Shown piece by piece: positions 1,119 through 13,300 of a stretch of DNA of 34,826 nucleotides. Under the pieces are notes generated by a model. It saw only the letters and a program-made list of their open reading frames with translations. It had not been told where the DNA came from and made no database searches. How positions within the stretch are numbered: position 1 is the stretch's first letter; the number at the start of each line of letters is the position of its first letter. The stretch is from Acidobacteriota bacterium. Lineage in GTDB: Bacteria; Acidobacteriota; UBA890; WLXD01. The position numbers and the translations under genes were made by a program. The stretch spans positions 1-34,826 of the forward strand of contig JAJCXS010000071.1 in the NCBI GenBank assembly GCA_029263335.1, written 5' to 3'.

Positions 1119-1267
1119 CCGGTCGGGCGGCGAGCAGGGTGCGGCCGGGGTGCATCGCCTGCAGTGCGGTGCCGAGTTCTCGGCCAAGACGCGAGGGCAA
1201 GGACGATCGAGAAACGTGTCAGGCGGTCACCGCACAGCCGGACGCACCCTGCTCGCCTCCCGACCGG
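1119..1267 (-). repeat. Palindromic element copy 1 (E1), 3' of polA
   Basis: Arms 1119-1148 and 1238-1267 are reverse complements at 28 of 30 positions. A further inner pairing, GTGC with GCAC, closes the stem next to a 78-nt core (1154-1231). Read on the minus strand, the polA sense strand, the core begins with GGTGACCG, contains CTCGCGTCTTGGCCGA and ends with TGCAGGCGAT. The same blocks occur in the elements at 10476-10618 and 10796-10929, while the arms are unrelated to theirs. The element starts 6 bases after the polA stop codon. No T-tract follows the stem, so it is not a classical intrinsic terminator. It is non-coding, since core length differs among copies by single bases. Function is unknown. 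Confidence 0.85.
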
Positions 1268-1273
1268 CCTCAG

Positions 1274-3952
1274 TTACGCCTTCGCTTCCATCCAGTTCGG
1301 CCCCGTGCCGACGTCGACTACGAGGGGGACGTCGAGTTCTATGGCGCCTTCCATCTCTTCGCGGACGATGGTCGTGATCGCTTCGATCTCGTCCTCGGGG
1401 ACCTCGAGCACGAGCTCGTCGTGTACCTGGATGGTCATGCGGGCGCCGTAGTCCTCATCCGTCAGGCGCGCGTCCAGGTTCACCATGGCCAACTTGATGA
1501 GATCGGCGGCGGTGCCCTGCAGCGGGGTGTTCACGGCGATCCGTTCGCCGAATGCGCGAACCATAGAGCGCCCGCTGTGGAGTTCGGGCAGATGGCGTAC
1601 GCGGCCCAGCAGAGTCGTCACGTAACCGACCTCTTTCGCCTCTTCAACGGTACCTTCCAGGTACTCGCCGACCTTCGGATAGGCGCTGCGGTACTGCGCA
1701 ATGAAGTCCTTGGCCTCCTTCACCGAGACCTCGAACTCGCGCGCGAGCCGCTGCGGACCCATGCCGTAGAGGACCCCGAAGTTGATGACCTTGGCGCGGT
1801 CGCGCTGCTCGTGGCTGACCTCGTCCGGATCGACATGGAATATCGCCGCGGCGGTGGCGCGATGGATGTCGAAGCCCTCACGAAAGGCGCGTTGTAGCTC
1901 GGCATCGCCGGACAGGTGGGCCATGATGCGCAGTTCGATCTGGGAATAATCTGCGATCAGCAGCTGGTGGCCGTCGGCAGGAACGAAAGCCTGGCGGATC
2001 TGCCGTCCCGTGGCGGTTCGGATCGGGATGTTCTGCAGGTTCGGGTTGCTGCTCGATAGTCGGCCGGTGGCCGCCACCGCCTGATCGAACGAAGCGTGCA
2101 CACGACCCGTCTCGGCGAACACAAACGTAGGCAGGGCGTCGAGGTAGGTGCTCTTCAGTTTGGTCGCTTCACGGAATTCGAGCACCTGACGGGCGATCGG
2201 GTACTCCACGGCCAGCGCCTCGAGGACCTCGGCCTTGGTCGACCGATTGCCACTCTTGGCGGTCTTGCCAGCGGACGGGAGTCCCAGCGTGTCGAAGAGC
2301 ACCTCGCCAAGTTGCTTGGGCGAGTTGATGTTGAACGTGGTGCCGGCGGCGTCGAAGATCTGCCGCTGGAGGTCGTCGATACGGGTGGCGAATGACGCGC
2401 TCAGTTCGGCCAGGTACGACGTGTTGATGCGCACGCCAGAACTCTCCATGCGTGCCAAGACACGGCACAGCGGCATCTCGATGGTTTCGAACAGGGTGGC
2501 CAGCCCGGGCTGGGCGGCGAGGTCGGCCGTGAAGGCCAGCGCCAGCTGCAGAGTTACGTCGGCGCGTTCGCCGGCAAACTGGGCGGCCTCCTCGATGGGC
2601 ACCATGTCGAACGTCGATTTCTTGTCGGGCAGAATGTCGGCGCGCTTGGTTGCCTGGGTTCGCAACAGATCGAGCGCGAGTTCCTCGATCGAGTGCGACG
2701 TACGTGTCGGATGCAGAACATACGAGGCCAGCATCGTGTCGAGCGTCGGCCGCGGCATGGGCAGCCCGTGGTGTGCGAACGTGATCAGGGCGCGCTTCAT
2801 GTCGTGCCCGATCAGCTGTACGGAGCCGTCGGTGAGAACTGAGCACAATTGCTCGAGGCAGGCCGACGGACTCATCGTGTTCGCGGCCGTCAGACCTTGG
2901 TGGCCTACTGGTAGATAGACCGCCTGCCCGGGCTCCGTCGCCATGGCGATACCGACGATGTTGGCTCGCATGGGCTCGGGGTGATCCGTCTGCAGCGCGA
3001 AAGCCAGACGCCCTGCGACGCGTGCCCCTTCCAGGAAACTATCGAGGTCCGCAGCGCTACTCAGTATCGCGTAGGCGCCTGTCGGTGCTTCGGGCTCGTC
3101 GGCGTATTCATCCACCAGACGTCGGAATTCCAGCTCGATGAAGAGATCGCGGACATCCGATCGGTTGGGTTCGGCGGCGCGCAGGTCCTCGAGTGCGACC
3201 GGCAGTTCCAGCTCCGTATGAATGGTGGCGAGGTGTTTGGACAGGATCGCCTGATCGGCGTACTCGACCAGGTTGCGACCATATTGGAAGCGGATCACGT
3301 CGTCGGCGTGTTCGATCGCCCCTTCCACGGAGCCATAGGCTTGGATCAGCTCACGGGCCCGCTTGGGGCCGACGCCCGGGACGCCGGGAATGTTGTCGAC
3401 GTTGTCGCCCATGAGTCCGAGCAGGTCTGCCATCTGACTCGGTAGCACTCCGTACTTCTGCTCGACCGCCGCCGTGTCGTACACGACCGTTTGGTTGCGA
3501 TCGCTGCGCAGTTCTACATGGTCGTCGACGAGCTGTAGCAGATCCTTGTCCTCAGAGGCGATAACTGTCCGGACGCCTGCCGCGGAGGCGGTCTTGGCGA
3601 GGGTGCCGATGACGTCATCGGCCTCGTACCGGTCGAGCTGCACCATCGGGATCCCCATGGCCTCGATTACCTTGCGTACCCACGGGAGCTGGGCGCGCAG
3701 ATCGTCGGGCATGGGCGTGCGGTTGGCCTTGTATTCAGCGTATTCTTCGTGCCGGATCGTCTTGCCGCCAGGATCAAACACCACCGCGACATAGTCGGGT
3801 TTCTCCTCGTGCAGAAGACGGCGCAGCATGGTCGTGAAGCCGTAAGTCGCGTTGGTGGGCACGCCGCGCGCCGTGGAGAGTTCCGGCAGCGCATGGTAGG
3901 CGCGGTGGATCTGGTTGTAGGCATCCACCAGACACAGTTTCTTGGTCGCCAT
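1274..3952 (-). CDS. polA: DNA polymerase I with an inactivated proofreading domain
   Basis: The 892-residue protein has the full Pol I layout. Residues 1-290 form the 5'-3' flap nuclease (LVDAYNQIHRAYH, YEADDVIGTLA, GDNVDNIPGVPGVGPKRA). A 3'-5' exonuclease-like domain follows at about 300-480, then the polymerase domain with motif A (ADYSQIELR, Asp668), motif B (RAKVINFGVLYGM) and motif C (VHDE, Asp845). It fills gaps and removes RNA primers during replication and repair. By manual alignment to E. coli Pol I, all four exonuclease metal ligands are replaced: D355 to Ala, E357 to Gln, D424 to Ala and D501 to Arg. Proofreading should therefore be absent, as in Taq. I chose the ATG at 3952 over one 18 bases upstream, because GGAG sits 8 bases before it and the family usually begins here. 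Element E1 follows the stop codon. Confidence 0.97.
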   Translation of the reverse strand: MATKKLCLVDAYNQIHRAYHALPELSTARGVPTNATYGFTTMLRRLLHEEKPDYVAVVFDPGGKTIRHEEYAEYKANRTPMPDDLRAQLPWVRKVIEAMGIPMVQLDRYEADDVIGTLAKTASAAGVRTVIASEDKDLLQLVDDHVELRSDRNQTVVYDTAAVEQKYGVLPSQMADLLGLMGDNVDNIPGVPGVGPKRARELIQAYGSVEGAIEHADDVIRFQYGRNLVEYADQAILSKHLATIHTELELPVALEDLRAAEPNRSDVRDLFIELEFRRLVDEYADEPEAPTGAYAILSSAADLDSFLEGARVAGRLAFALQTDHPEPMRANIVGIAMATEPGQAVYLPVGHQGLTAANTMSPSACLEQLCSVLTDGSVQLIGHDMKRALITFAHHGLPMPRPTLDTMLASYVLHPTRTSHSIEELALDLLRTQATKRADILPDKKSTFDMVPIEEAAQFAGERADVTLQLALAFTADLAAQPGLATLFETIEMPLCRVLARMESSGVRINTSYLAELSASFATRIDDLQRQIFDAAGTTFNINSPKQLGEVLFDTLGLPSAGKTAKSGNRSTKAEVLEALAVEYPIARQVLEFREATKLKSTYLDALPTFVFAETGRVHASFDQAVAATGRLSSSNPNLQNIPIRTATGRQIRQAFVPADGHQLLIADYSQIELRIMAHLSGDAELQRAFREGFDIHRATAAAIFHVDPDEVSHEQRDRAKVINFGVLYGMGPQRLAREFEVSVKEAKDFIAQYRSAYPKVGEYLEGTVEEAKEVGYVTTLLGRVRHLPELHSGRSMVRAFGERIAVNTPLQGTAADLIKLAMVNLDARLTDEDYGARMTIQVHDELVLEVPEDEIEAITTIVREEMEGAIELDVPLVVDVGTGPNWMEAKA

Positions 3953-3960
3953 GGGTCGCG

Positions 3961-3964
3961 CTCC
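3961..3964 (-). promoter_or_regulatory. Shine-Dalgarno site deciding the polA start
   Basis: On the minus strand GGAG is followed by 8 bases and then the ATG at 3952. The alternative ATG at 3970 has no purine-rich site before it. A 6-bp inverted repeat, CTGGCC/GGCCAG (3973-3978 and 3985-3990), lies just upstream in the leader and may be incidental. Confidence 0.6.
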
Positions 3965-4053
3965 GTACATGACTGGCCGGGGTTGGCCAGGTTAGAATAC
4001 TGTGGAGTTGATGGCGCCGGGTCAGCCAGCTAATTGCGGAGAATGCCGGTCGG

Positions 4054-8999: not shown

Positions 9000-9070
9000 C
9001 GGTCGGCGCTTAGAAGTACTACCCCACGGGCCGTCAGCCCTGCTGCTTGGCTGAGGCCGCGAGAGAAGAC

Positions 9071-10468
9071 TTGGCGAATACGAAGACCATTCTCGTCATC
9101 GACGACGAAGCGATCATGCGGGAGACGCTCTCCGACTTCCTGCACGATGAAGGCTTCCAGGTGGACGTTGCGTCCTCCGGTGAGGAAGGCCTCGAACTGG
9201 CGAAGGCGAAGCCCTACGACTGTGCCATCGTCGATTTGATGATGCCGGGGATGGACGGCGTCCAGACCACGCGCGCACTCAAAGAGCACGACAGCACGCT
9301 GCCGGTGATCATGATTACCGCCTACGCATCGGTGGAATCGGCCGTCGATGCGATGAAGCAGGGCGCTCACGAGTACATCACCAAGCCGTTCAAGATCGAT
9401 GAGGTGCTTCTCGTTATCGAGAGTGCCATCCGCCAGCGCGATCTGGAACTTGAAGTGCGGAGCCTGCGCCGGGCGTTACGTGAGAAGTACCGCTTCGAGA
9501 ACATCATCGGCAAGAACCGCAAGATGCAGGAGGTCTACGCCCTCATCTCGCAGGCGGCCCCTTCGCGTTCGACGATTCTCATCCTCGGGGATAGCGGCAC
9601 CGGCAAGGAGTTGGTGGCCAAGGCGATTCACGCCAACAGCACGCGCGCCGACAACGCCTTCGTCACGGTCAACTCCGGCGCGATGTCGTCGGAGCTTCTC
9701 GAGAGCAACCTGTTCGGCCACGAGAAAGGTTCGTTCACGGGTGCGGTGAGCAGCAAGAAGGGCCTTTTCGAGGTGGCGGACGGCGGTACGATCTTCCTCG
9801 ACGAGATTGCCAACGTTGCTCTCGATGTTCAGGCCAAGCTGCTGCGCGTGATTCAGGAGCGCGAATTCATGCGCGTCGGCGGCCTCGAGAACATCAAGAC
9901 GGACGTGCGCATCATCTCGGCAACCAACGTGGACCTGCGACGTAAGGTGGCTGATGGTGAGTTCCGCGAGGATCTCTACTACCGTCTCAACGTGATCACC
10001 TTGTCGCTACCACCACTGTGCGATCGGGCCGACGATATTCCTCTCCTGACCCAGCACTTCCTCGACAAGTACGCCGAAGAGAACGGCCGACAAGGTCTCG
10101 CGATGAGCGAGGAGGCCGTCGACGTGCTCAAGGCGTACCAGTGGCCGGGCAATGTCCGCGAGCTCGAGAACGCGGTGGAGCGCGCCGTCGTTCTGGCCCC
10201 TGTCGACGGCCACATCGGCGCCAGCCTGGTGCGTGAGTACATCGACCCGGAGCCACTCGATGGCGCTGCCTTGCCCCACCTGATGCTAGGCACGGCGCCC
10301 CTGCGCGGCATGGTCGAGGAATTCGAGAAGCGACTGATTCTGCGCGCCCTCGAACAAACGGAGTGGGTGCAGAAAGACGCCGCGGTCCTGCTCGACGTGA
10401 AGCCGACTACGCTGAACGAGAAGATCAAACGTTACGGCATCCGAGCGGTGGTCAAGGAACACGCTTAG
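9071..10468 (+). CDS. NtrC-family sigma-54-dependent response regulator
   Basis: The 465-residue protein has three domains. A receiver domain spans about 1-120 with phospho-acceptor Asp55 (AIVDLMMPGMDG). An AAA+ sigma-54 activation domain spans about 140-370 with Walker A (GDSGTGKE, 173-180), the sigma-54 loop GSFTGA (220-225, a variant of GAFTGA) and Walker B (TIFLDEI). A Fis-type helix-turn-helix is at the C terminus (KDAAVLLDVKPTTLNEKIK). It activates sigma-54 promoters after phosphorylation by the kinase encoded 71 bases upstream. I chose the TTG at 9071 because it follows a GAGAGAAG purine run and places the receiver at the usual distance from the N terminus; another TTG at 9047 lacks such a site. 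Palindromic element E2 begins 7 bases after the stop codon. Confidence 0.95.
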   Translation: MANTKTILVIDDEAIMRETLSDFLHDEGFQVDVASSGEEGLELAKAKPYDCAIVDLMMPGMDGVQTTRALKEHDSTLPVIMITAYASVESAVDAMKQGAHEYITKPFKIDEVLLVIESAIRQRDLELEVRSLRRALREKYRFENIIGKNRKMQEVYALISQAAPSRSTILILGDSGTGKELVAKAIHANSTRADNAFVTVNSGAMSSELLESNLFGHEKGSFTGAVSSKKGLFEVADGGTIFLDEIANVALDVQAKLLRVIQEREFMRVGGLENIKTDVRIISATNVDLRRKVADGEFREDLYYRLNVITLSLPPLCDRADDIPLLTQHFLDKYAEENGRQGLAMSEEAVDVLKAYQWPGNVRELENAVERAVVLAPVDGHIGASLVREYIDPEPLDGAALPHLMLGTAPLRGMVEEFEKRLILRALEQTEWVQKDAAVLLDVKPTTLNEKIKRYGIRAVVKEHA

Positions 10469-10475
10469 GCGCTTG

Positions 10476-10618
10476 GGAGCGGGCGGCGCCCCACTACTCT
10501 CCAGGGGCGGTGACCGTTCGTGAGTTGCTCGGTCTGCCGTGCCCTCGCGTCTTGGCCGAAGACTCTTCAGCGCAGTGCAGGCGATGCCCCTGGAGAGTAG
10601 TGGGGCGCCGCCCGCTCC
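10476..10618 (+). repeat. Palindromic element copy 2 (E2), 3' of the NtrC-like gene
   Basis: Arms 10476-10508 and 10586-10618 form a perfect 33-bp inverted repeat around a 77-nt core (10509-10585). On the plus strand, the sense strand of the regulator gene, the core starts GGTGACCG, contains CTCGCGTCTTGGCCGAAGAC (a possible inner hairpin, GTCTT with AAGAC) and ends TGCAGGCGAT. The core matches the elements at 1119-1267 and 10796-10929, but the arms do not. It begins 7 bases after the stop codon at 10468. No T-run follows the stem. Confidence 0.9.
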
Positions 10619-10664
10619 AGTGACTTGCGGGGTTCTTGGCTACCGGGATTCCTTTCGAACGCCT

Positions 10665-10761
10665 GAGCTTCGGCGTGGGCCGGTAAGGTTGTCGCGGTCT
10701 TTCGAGACGCGAAACGTTCGCTCCGCCACCGGCATCGGCGCCCGGCCGCACGCCGACGCTC
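10665..10761. repeat. Imperfect palindrome between elements E2 and E3
   Basis: Bases 10665-10683 pair with 10742-10761 at 18 positions, with one mismatch and one bulge. The 58-base interior holds a smaller hairpin with a TTCG loop (about 10693-10711). It lacks the core shared by E1-E3, so it is either a different structure or a fully decayed relative. Confidence 0.6.
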
Positions 10762-10795
10762 CGCAGTCACGCCCGGTCACACTCAGGTGTCGCCA

Positions 10796-10929
10796 GGGCG
10801 GAGGGGATGTCCCTCTTACGCGGCATCGCCTGCAGTGAGCCAAAGAGTCTTCGGCCAAGACGCGAGAGCACGGACGTCTGCCTGGGCAATAGCGGCGACC
10901 GCCGCGAAAGAGGGACATCCCCTCCGCCC
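10796..10929 (-). repeat. Palindromic element copy 3 (E3), 3' of the DUF5916 gene
   Basis: Arms 10796-10824 and 10901-10929 pair perfectly over 22 bp, then have one A-A mismatch, then pair over 6 more. They enclose a 76-nt core (10825-10900). On the minus strand, sense for the neighbouring gene, the core starts GGTCGCCG, contains CTCGCGTCTTGGCCGAAGAC and ends TGCAGGCGAT, as in the other two copies. The arms share no sequence with the arms of E1 or E2. The element lies 10 bases beyond the stop codon of the gene ending at 10940. Confidence 0.9.
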
Positions 10930-10939
10930 AGTCCTACAC

Positions 10940-13234
10940 CTAAAGCATGAACAGGTACGTGAACTTCAGAATGATCGCCCGATCCGCCGGCAGCGTGCCG
11001 TGGCCCGTTTCCCATTCCTGGTTGTAGACCAGGAACAGATCGGCGCCCGGTCGGTAGATCCAGTTGAAGCGCGAGTTGAGGCTCAGCAGGTCGTCCGAGT
11101 CGTTGTACTGGGCGAAGGTGTTCCAGAACAGGTTCGGGCTCAGGGCCACGTTTACTCGCTGGCGCAGCGTGTTTACGGTGAACTCGCCTGCCGGCAGGGT
11201 GACGTCGTTGTACGACCAGTCGGTGTTCAGGCTCAGGTGCTTGCTGGCGCGCACGGTGAGGCCGTTGGTTCCCTGCAGGCGGTTGCCGTTGTAGAAACCG
11301 CCGGTTGTCCAGAAGCCGAAGTAGGAGACTGGGCGGCTGCTGTCGGTACGCAGAAAGATGCCGACGGTCGTCCAGTTGTAGCGGCCCGGCTCGATGAAGA
11401 TGCCCGGCTGAATCTCGAAGCGAGCGTCGAGCCGATCGAAGTTGTGATCGCCGAAGAACGTAGCTCGATCGCCGGAGAGCAGGTCGAAGCCGAAGAAGCG
11501 CAGCGTCGCGCTGACGCTCTCGAGTTGGCCGTCGTTGTCGAGGGTGTAGGTGCCGCGATGCGCGAAGCTGAGATTGCGCACGCCGAGGTCGTTGCTCGGC
11601 CGTGGTTCGAAGTTGATGTTGTAGCTGTACTGGCTGATGCCCCGGCGTCGCAGGAATCCCATTTCCGGGTCGAAGTCGTCGCTGATGCGAGTGAGCCCGG
11701 CGCTGGCCTGCAAGATGCTGCCACGGTAGTTGAAGCCCGCGCTGCCCGCCCAGCCGGAACCCTCAACGCCGGCGCTGCGGCTGGTGGCGAACGACCCGTT
11801 GAAGTTGATCCGCTGGCTCGGGTTGATGTCGGTGTCGATGCCGAAGACCCGGTTCCAGTCATTGCCGCCCGTCTGCCGATTGGTGAACATGCCACCCACG
11901 AACGAGCGGGCGCCGAAGTTGCGTTTTAGTCGCGCGACGCCCCAGTTGGTTGAGCGCACGCCGATGTCTTCGATCGAGTCGGTCTGTACATCGAGCAGAC
12001 CCCAGTTCCAGCCACCAGACCGGCCGGTGAAACGGCCGCCGGCGAGGATCGGCACGATGGCGCCTTCGCCAATGCCGATGTTGCGCGAGTGGAACATACG
12101 CCACAGCGGACCGCCGCGGTTGGTGCCGCCCGCCGCACTGGTGTTGGCGAACTCGAAAATGCCCGCGTTCTCCAGGAAGAACTCTCGTTTCTCGGGGAAG
12201 AACAGTGAGAAACGCGTCAGGTTGACCTGCTGGTCGTCCACTTCGACCTGGGCAAAATCGGTGTTCGCCGTGAGATCGAGCGTCATCGAGTTCGAGATAC
12301 CCCAGCGCAGCAGATCGAGGCCGGCGTCGAGTTCGGTCTCGGCCTCGCTCATCGGGTCGCGATAGTCGCGGGCGGCGGTGCCGGAGCCAAAGGGCTTGAT
12401 GCGAAGGTTCAGCCCGGGCTCCAGTCCCTGCATGCCAATCAGGTCGCCGGCCAGCGATACCCGCAGCAGATCGGCGTCGAGGTCGATCGGCGCCCAGTGA
12501 ACCTCTTCGTTCTTGCGACGAATCAGTCGCCGGATGTTCACACCCCAGGTATCGGTGTTGGGATCGAACCGCAGGGTCGAGAACGGCACCACAAGCTCGG
12601 CCGACCACCCTTCCGGGGTGCGGCGCGCGGCCGCGTTCCAGACACCGTCCCATTCGAAATTGGCGTTGCTCTCGTTCTCGATCAGCGCGTCGGCGCGAGC
12701 CCCGTTGGGGTTGGTCTCGAAGTAGAAGCCGTTGCGGCCATCCAGAAACGTATCGAGGATGACGCCGATCGAATCGTCGTCGCGGTACGCACCCGCGTTG
12801 CCTCCGAAACCCCCGAAGCTGCCCTCGCCGTCGCGCTGCATCTCCTTGGCGACGACGGCGCTCGGCTCGCTGTCGAACGCCATGATGCCGATGTAGAAGT
12901 TCTTGTCGTCGTACGCGAAGCGCACCTCGGTGCGCTCGGTCGCGGCGTCGCCCGGGTCGGGCTGCCGCTGCGTGAACCCGGTGGCGGGTAAGGCCTTCTG
13001 CCAGAAGGGCTCGTCCAGATAGCCGTCCATGCGCACGGGTTCGTCGATGATCAGCGCGCCGGTGGCCGGTGTCTCACGGGCTTGCTGGGCGCCCGCGGGT
13101 CCAGCAAGGGCGGCCAGCAGTAAGAGTGCCACCACGATGGCGCTACAGAGCCCCTGGCGTGAGCGCTGAGCCTGTGCTCGCGTGGACGGCGAGCGAACTC
13201 CGAGCGCACGGATTTCGACGTTTCTTCTTGGCAT
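10940..13234 (-). CDS. DUF5916 / CBM9-domain outer-membrane protein
   Basis: The 764-residue protein starts with a long signal peptide (hydrophobic core about 30-46, cleavage near AGAQQ). A family-9 carbohydrate-binding-like domain follows at about 60-230 (VRMDGYLDEPFWQKALPA, VRFAYDDKNFYIGIMAFDSE). After it comes a DUF5916 beta-barrel-type region (FSLFFPEKREFFLENAGIFEF). This domain pair is widespread in Bacteroidota and Acidobacteriota. It is predicted to sit in the outer membrane, but its biochemical role is not established. The C terminus (FTYLFML) is hydrophobic with a penultimate aromatic strand. I prefer the ATG at 13234, which gives a signal peptide; a GTG at 13273 extends it but neither has a clear ribosome site. 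It lies 66 bases after the kinase gene stop on the same strand, so it may share that transcript. Confidence 0.87.
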   Translation of the reverse strand: MPRRNVEIRALGVRSPSTRAQAQRSRQGLCSAIVVALLLLAALAGPAGAQQARETPATGALIIDEPVRMDGYLDEPFWQKALPATGFTQRQPDPGDAATERTEVRFAYDDKNFYIGIMAFDSEPSAVVAKEMQRDGEGSFGGFGGNAGAYRDDDSIGVILDTFLDGRNGFYFETNPNGARADALIENESNANFEWDGVWNAAARRTPEGWSAELVVPFSTLRFDPNTDTWGVNIRRLIRRKNEEVHWAPIDLDADLLRVSLAGDLIGMQGLEPGLNLRIKPFGSGTAARDYRDPMSEAETELDAGLDLLRWGISNSMTLDLTANTDFAQVEVDDQQVNLTRFSLFFPEKREFFLENAGIFEFANTSAAGGTNRGGPLWRMFHSRNIGIGEGAIVPILAGGRFTGRSGGWNWGLLDVQTDSIEDIGVRSTNWGVARLKRNFGARSFVGGMFTNRQTGGNDWNRVFGIDTDINPSQRINFNGSFATSRSAGVEGSGWAGSAGFNYRGSILQASAGLTRISDDFDPEMGFLRRRGISQYSYNINFEPRPSNDLGVRNLSFAHRGTYTLDNDGQLESVSATLRFFGFDLLSGDRATFFGDHNFDRLDARFEIQPGIFIEPGRYNWTTVGIFLRTDSSRPVSYFGFWTTGGFYNGNRLQGTNGLTVRASKHLSLNTDWSYNDVTLPAGEFTVNTLRQRVNVALSPNLFWNTFAQYNDSDDLLSLNSRFNWIYRPGADLFLVYNQEWETGHGTLPADRAIILKFTYLFML

Positions 13235-13300
13235 AGGAAAACCGGCAGTGGGGCAGTCGCCGAAGGCTAGCACTTTGGGCAGGGGCTGATCGTCGGGCGA

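Follow-up and report, generated by a model that had tools for sequence, protein, structure and literature searches.

A genus-restricted family of palindromic intergenic repeats with a conserved core and variable, paired arms

The described systems closest to the hairpins reported here are the ERIC (IRU, RU-1) elements of enterobacteria (127 bp), short imperfect intergenic palindromes that lie near genes and lack a transposase of their own, and for which orientation matters in the reported RNA effect (PMC2229807). Small stem-loop-forming repeats with inverted ends, such as Correia/NEMIS, RUP, and the Rickettsia RPE, have been described by their conserved terminal repeats and, mostly, by target-site duplications (PMC2229807), and among the extragenic palindromes of the REP, BIME, and REPIN type, the REPs are given in PMC3733652 as 20 to 40 bp long with tagged ends. 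Template switching, which homogenizes the arms of inverted repeats and can produce perfect stems in a single event, is documented as well (PMC8604942, PMC8794818, and, for E. coli, PMC7202029), and the events described favor short spacers (PMC8604942).

The window analyzed here, a 34,826-nt stretch of an Acidobacteriota contig, contains three hairpins, E1, E2, and E3 (Table 1), whose arms are complementary far beyond chance. The arm lengths and pairing previously reported in a sequence-only reading of this DNA, including the inner 4-bp GTGC/GCAC pair of E1, were all reproduced; the conserved core also stood, although the number of positions identical in all three hairpins among its best 50 columns came out as 39 and not 38. 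The whole of E2 folds at z = -10 relative to dinucleotide shuffles. Its core taken alone is no more stable than shuffles on either strand, and the proposal that the core is a structured RNA was rejected.

Table 1. Hairpins of the window, their parts, and the adjacent genes
Feature	Positions	Strand	Remarks
E2 left arm, 33 bp	10476..10508	+	Perfect complement of 10586-10618
E2 core, 77 nt	10509..10585	+	Alone, folds no better than shuffles
E2 right arm	10586..10618	+	33/33 complementary to 10476-10508
E2 right flank, probable decayed inverted copy of the 3' end of the upstream gene	10619..10690	+	p ~3e-4 (60 nt, 3000 shuffles), plus alignment
E3 left arm (element reads on - strand)	10901..10929	-	28/29 complementary to 10796..10824
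E3 core, 76 nt	10825..10900	-	
E3 right arm	10796..10824	-	28/29 complementary to 10901..10929
E3 right trailer TGGCGACACCTGA (family consensus ~GGCACCACCGAG)	10783..10795	-	Mean between-copy trailer identity 68% (31% shuffled)
E3 outer right flank, probable decayed inverted copy of the 3' end of the DUF5916 gene	10720..10782	-	p ~3e-4, plus alignment
E1 left arm (element reads on - strand)	1238..1267	-	28/30 complementary to 1119-1148
E1 loop, 89 nt: core 1154-1231 plus inner GTGC/GCAC pair	1149..1237	-	
E1 right arm	1119..1148	-	28/30 complementary to 1238-1267
Sigma-54 response regulator gene	9047..10468	+	Pfam; E2 7 nt behind stop, co-directional
DUF5916 gene	10940..13273	-	Pfam; E3 10 nt behind stop, co-directional
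polA (DNA polymerase I)	1274..3970	-	Pfam; E1 6 nt behind stop, co-directional

Searches with the core as a DNA query, then with a sequence model, and then with a covariance model recovered 28 copies across three congeneric species, which bears out the view that E1 to E3 form a family. Nine are in the window's own genome, G000 (three on C71, two on C79, and one each on C41, C115, C44, and C229), seven in the congener G001, and 12 in the congener G002, where 11 are complete and one is split over two contig ends; in the latter case, contig C115 ends in a left half that the regulator gene leads into, the matching right half is found where C34 ends, and we infer that the two halves are one copy. 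All 27 complete copies have variable arms of 17 to 34 bp that pair around a core of 74 to 95 nt, as the sequence-only reading had led one to expect, and the elements are laid out as left arm, core, right arm, and a trailer of ~13 nt, ~140 to 150 bp in total. The family is restricted to one genus, being absent from 393 other sampled genomes of the phylum and from plasmids, phages, and IMG/VR. A match to an already described RNA family, considered earlier, did not materialize: Rfam gave 0 matches in the window, and those obtained at relaxed thresholds were weak and far below the gathering scores. Two exact-pattern matches in GTDB contigs were dismissed as chance occurrences inside unrelated sequence without arms, and weak model matches were likewise rejected for lack of arms, both outside the genus and within the genomes compared (G002_C120, G001_C6a, and G000_C210). 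On C115 of G000, a truncated right half (locus L123, positions 1265-1318; core end, decayed right arm, and trailer) comes immediately after the complete copy behind ssb and represents a partial copy that lacks the left arm. In G002, the regulator and DUF5916 genes are separated by a MacB/FtsX gene, which has an element of its own.

The arms had been regarded as unrelated between copies, an impression that arose because only three divergent copies were compared (arm identity among E1, E2, and E3 is 39 to 52%). In a 25-copy alignment, of which 24 copies were used and one partial copy was left out, the mean between-copy identity of the left and right arms is 51 to 52%, compared with 29 to 30% after shuffling, and that of the core is 69%. 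Judged by these identities, the arms are homologous and fast-evolving and the core is slow, in keeping with its earlier description as the better-conserved part. Conservation of the arms in the manner of a MITE, which the sequence-only reading had set against its own interpretation, is found within subfamilies, where arms are up to 100% identical and some paralogues have near-identical arms, while overall arm identity stays at 51%. Arms resembling GGCGGGACGGATACCCCGGCAC are common to many copies; C41, C67a, C67b, and G002_C115 have in common arms of the form AGAAGGGCGG..CACACC..CTCTC, and the arms of E2 are 78% identical to those of G002_C34a.

Pairing is kept while the arm sequence changes, as had been proposed. 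In the 28-row covariation alignment, 94.5% of the cells pair versus 65.9% after shuffling, 183 cells represent changes on both sides, and covariation is scored at 0.71, as opposed to 0.19 after shuffling and no more than 0.18 when the structure is slid, all of these values being subject to the tendency of structure-fitted alignments to lean toward that structure. One-sided changes are almost absent across the 17 arm pairs, and the arms of each copy are ~96% self-complementary; in the clean arms, 28 of 675 pairs (4%) are mismatched (3 G.U, 11 A.C, and 14 other). C67a and C67b, whose arms are paired at 29/32 positions in one and 34/34 in the other, differ at 2 of 78 core positions and, in the arms, by a substitution and a 2-bp indel, both of them paired; C12a and C12b show 3 core differences in 93 positions and one paired arm change. 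Paired multi-base changes between near-identical copies are what template switching calls for, and independent double hits would be expected at ~0.007 per such comparison. The signature of selection on an RNA fold, one of the two explanations previously offered for the maintained pairing, is absent: because such selection would favor G.U over A.C, the mismatch counts, few as they are, do not support selection on the sense RNA. A.C on the sense strand is G.U on the antisense strand, but the excess of A.C (p = 0.06) is too weak to be an argument for the latter. Given the two-sided changes, the paired indel, the lack of G.U intermediates, and cores that differ at only two or three sites, template switching at the DNA level fits the arm changes better than RNA-fold selection, and the best explanation, on balance a probable one, is that of a genus-specific non-autonomous palindromic intergenic repeat whose arms are kept matched by template switching (quasipalindrome correction).

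Placement and orientation are strongly biased. In every assignable copy, the core reads in the same direction as the nearest transcription unit upstream, whose stop codon is located 6 to 36 nt before the left arm in ~17 copies. The genes upstream belong to unrelated families (polA, sigma-54 regulator, DUF5916, ssb, succinyl-CoA ligase, carbamoyl-phosphate synthase, MacB/FtsX, TerC, PQQ propeller, SpoIIE, and outer-membrane proteins); further copies are found behind tRNA-Glu or behind a 192-codon reading frame, a tRNA-Ala, and a terminator-like hairpin, and C41, which is near a contig edge, was placed by flank homology only. On C79 of G000, two elements stand 1.8 kb apart, the first behind tRNA-Glu and the second behind an apparent duplicated tRNA tail and its T-run. 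Such a distribution could arise because the element inserts at gene ends or because it is tolerated, or useful, as a 3'-UTR hairpin. The distribution speaks for a functional 3'-UTR RNA hairpin (a factor-dependent terminator or an mRNA-stability or RNase III element) with a selected stem and compensatory two-sided changes, as do the concentration of long hairpins at the 3' ends of coding sequences in many bacteria (PMC1590033) and the occupation of the E2 and E3 positions in other congeners. A hairpin of this kind is a possible but rather unlikely explanation, however, not only in view of the mismatch spectrum and the near-total lack of one-sided arm changes but also because several copies are already preceded by what was judged by eye to be an intrinsic terminator, the right arm has no U tract after it (0 to 3 T in the next 8 nt in the 27 copies), and paired changes precede core change.

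Inverted similarity is not confined to the arms. When each left flank was compared with the reverse complement of the right flank of the same copy, with mismatched pairs from other loci as the control, own-locus flanks stood out at p = 3e-7 (50 nt outside the arms) and p = 1e-5 (nt 15 to 60); the per-copy p value was ~0.01 or less for E2, E3, C229, C41, C67a, C67b, G002_C115, and G001_C6c, and the combined value (Fisher, without duplicates) was 1e-8. The signal is strongest in E2 and E3, where it reaches the floor of 3000 shuffles and where the matched left flanks take in the end of the coding sequence of the regulator gene and of the DUF5916 gene, respectively. In some copies, the inverted repeat thus probably extends, in a decayed form, into the 3' end of the neighboring gene, a grading that allows for a possible contribution of terminators and convergent gene ends. 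The inner arms are near-perfect, whereas the outer repeat is heavily decayed.

On this probable explanation, the element spread to sites at the 3' ends of transcription units and has since been inherited in part vertically. During replication, the nascent strand would fold back or switch strands at the inverted repeat, and one arm would be copied from the other, rewriting both together, sometimes with paired indels; copying would occasionally overrun the base of the arms, inverting the left flank, i.e., the 3' end of the gene, into the right flank, and the core, as the loop, would remain outside this correction. Several features argue against template switching: loops of 74 to 95 nt are long compared with the events described (PMC8604942), strict co-directionality is not predicted and calls for a second explanation, and many copies show little or no flank extension, a signal that could also be mimicked by convergent gene ends or terminators. 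A broader reading, which we regard as speculative and unlikely, holds that the loop is the conserved heritable part, that the stem is continually rewritten by template switching and grows into the end of the adjacent gene, and that the spread is coupled to transcription units, with the element always behind a gene and in the same direction as it; if true, this would be a palindromic element propagated and maintained by fold-back synthesis and not by terminal-repeat recognition.

Occupancy differs between the species. The E2 position is occupied in G000, G001, and G002 and the E3 position in G000 and G001, and the interval between the regulator and DUF5916 genes is ~35 nt in the outgroup G003, whereas the E2-E3 interval in G000 is 471 nt. 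Directly behind the DUF5916 stop codon, where G000 has E3, G002 carries a short palindrome, GGGCGGctGGGGTTAACCCCgcCC, possibly what is left of a copy that was deleted. G000 and G002 carry the ssb element and G001 and G003 do not, the carB element is found in G002 only, and behind polA, G000 has E1 whereas G001 and G003 lack an element; the polA interval of G002 holds an element in the opposite orientation that is tied to the neighboring gene. Inspection of the empty ssb, carB, and polA sites and of the DUF5916/regulator site of G003 revealed no arm-like sequence, so the arms arrived together with the element, and the comparison proposed earlier, whether one arm pre-exists at element-free loci, gave a negative result at all four. 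Of the earlier suggestion that flanking DNA is copied as an inverted duplicate, what survives is that, in some copies, inverted similarity continues past the arms into flanks specific to the locus. That similarity, reaching into coding 3' ends, and the long E2-E3 interval would suit a mobile core whose arms are generated at insertion by copying flanking DNA in inverted form, but such fold-back insertion is improbable in the face of the armless empty sites, the homology of the arms between loci and species, and the contrast between inner arms and outer repeat, which are not of one age or process. In a tree of the cores, positional orthologues do not group: E2 is placed with G002_C34a (support 90), and the G001 copies at the E2 and E3 positions fall together (94), which makes conversion between copies or repeated insertion likely. 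On C12 of G002, C12b is preceded by a copy of approximately the last 40 codons of ssb, indicating that the gene 3' end and the element were duplicated as a unit.

Target-site duplications gave no general signal (direct-repeat test, p = 0.53), the only two suggestive cases being CTAGCT at G002_C12b and GACGGACG at G002_C2a. The Y1 (RAYT-type) transposase PF01797 was absent from G000 to G003 and detected in 5 control genomes; no terminal motif was found in the family copies, the listed copies do not consistently end in TA, and attC ends (RYYYAAC / GTTRRRY) were lacking, with an isolated 7-mer in 2 of 27 copies that was not at the ends. As these searches, which for transposases covered the Y1 family, turned up neither a transposase nor a target-site duplication nor a terminal motif, mobility is deduced from occupancy only. 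An ordinary MITE mobilized by an unidentified transposase, with arms that differ purely through subfamily divergence, would agree with the variable occupancy of the ssb, carB, and polA sites and with arms shared within subfamilies but is the least probable explanation, as the target-site test was negative and divergence alone would not hold each copy so close to self-complementarity.

The family resembles ERIC/IRU in that its hairpins are ~140 bp long, intergenic, near genes, and devoid of their own transposase. Unlike ERIC, it showed no TA ends or target-site duplications, its arms vary between copies and are near-perfect within each, and it is low-copy, strictly 3' and co-directional, and found in a different lineage. 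It shares stem-loop formation and inverted ends with Correia/NEMIS, RUP, and RPE, but its conservation is highest in the loop; it is extragenic and palindromic like REP, BIME, and REPIN but, in contrast to REP/REPIN, its genomes encode no RAYT-type transposase. Arm homogenization, paired multi-base changes, and identity extended between arms are features of quasipalindrome correction (PMC8604942, PMC8794818, and PMC7202029), although the reported cases mostly involve short spacers, whereas a whole repeat family with 17- to 34-bp arms and 74- to 95-nt loops is seen here. The 28 natural hairpins offer a series for separating template-switch mutation from RNA-fold selection, and their strict 3' co-directional placement poses a testable question. 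Covariation, which is usually read as proof of a functional RNA, occurs here without G.U intermediates, which calls for caution in covariation-based RNA discovery. The repeats constitute a new palindromic family restricted to one genus and akin to ERIC elements and MITEs, but in which the pattern of conservation is reversed; template switching is the most likely means by which its arms stay matched.
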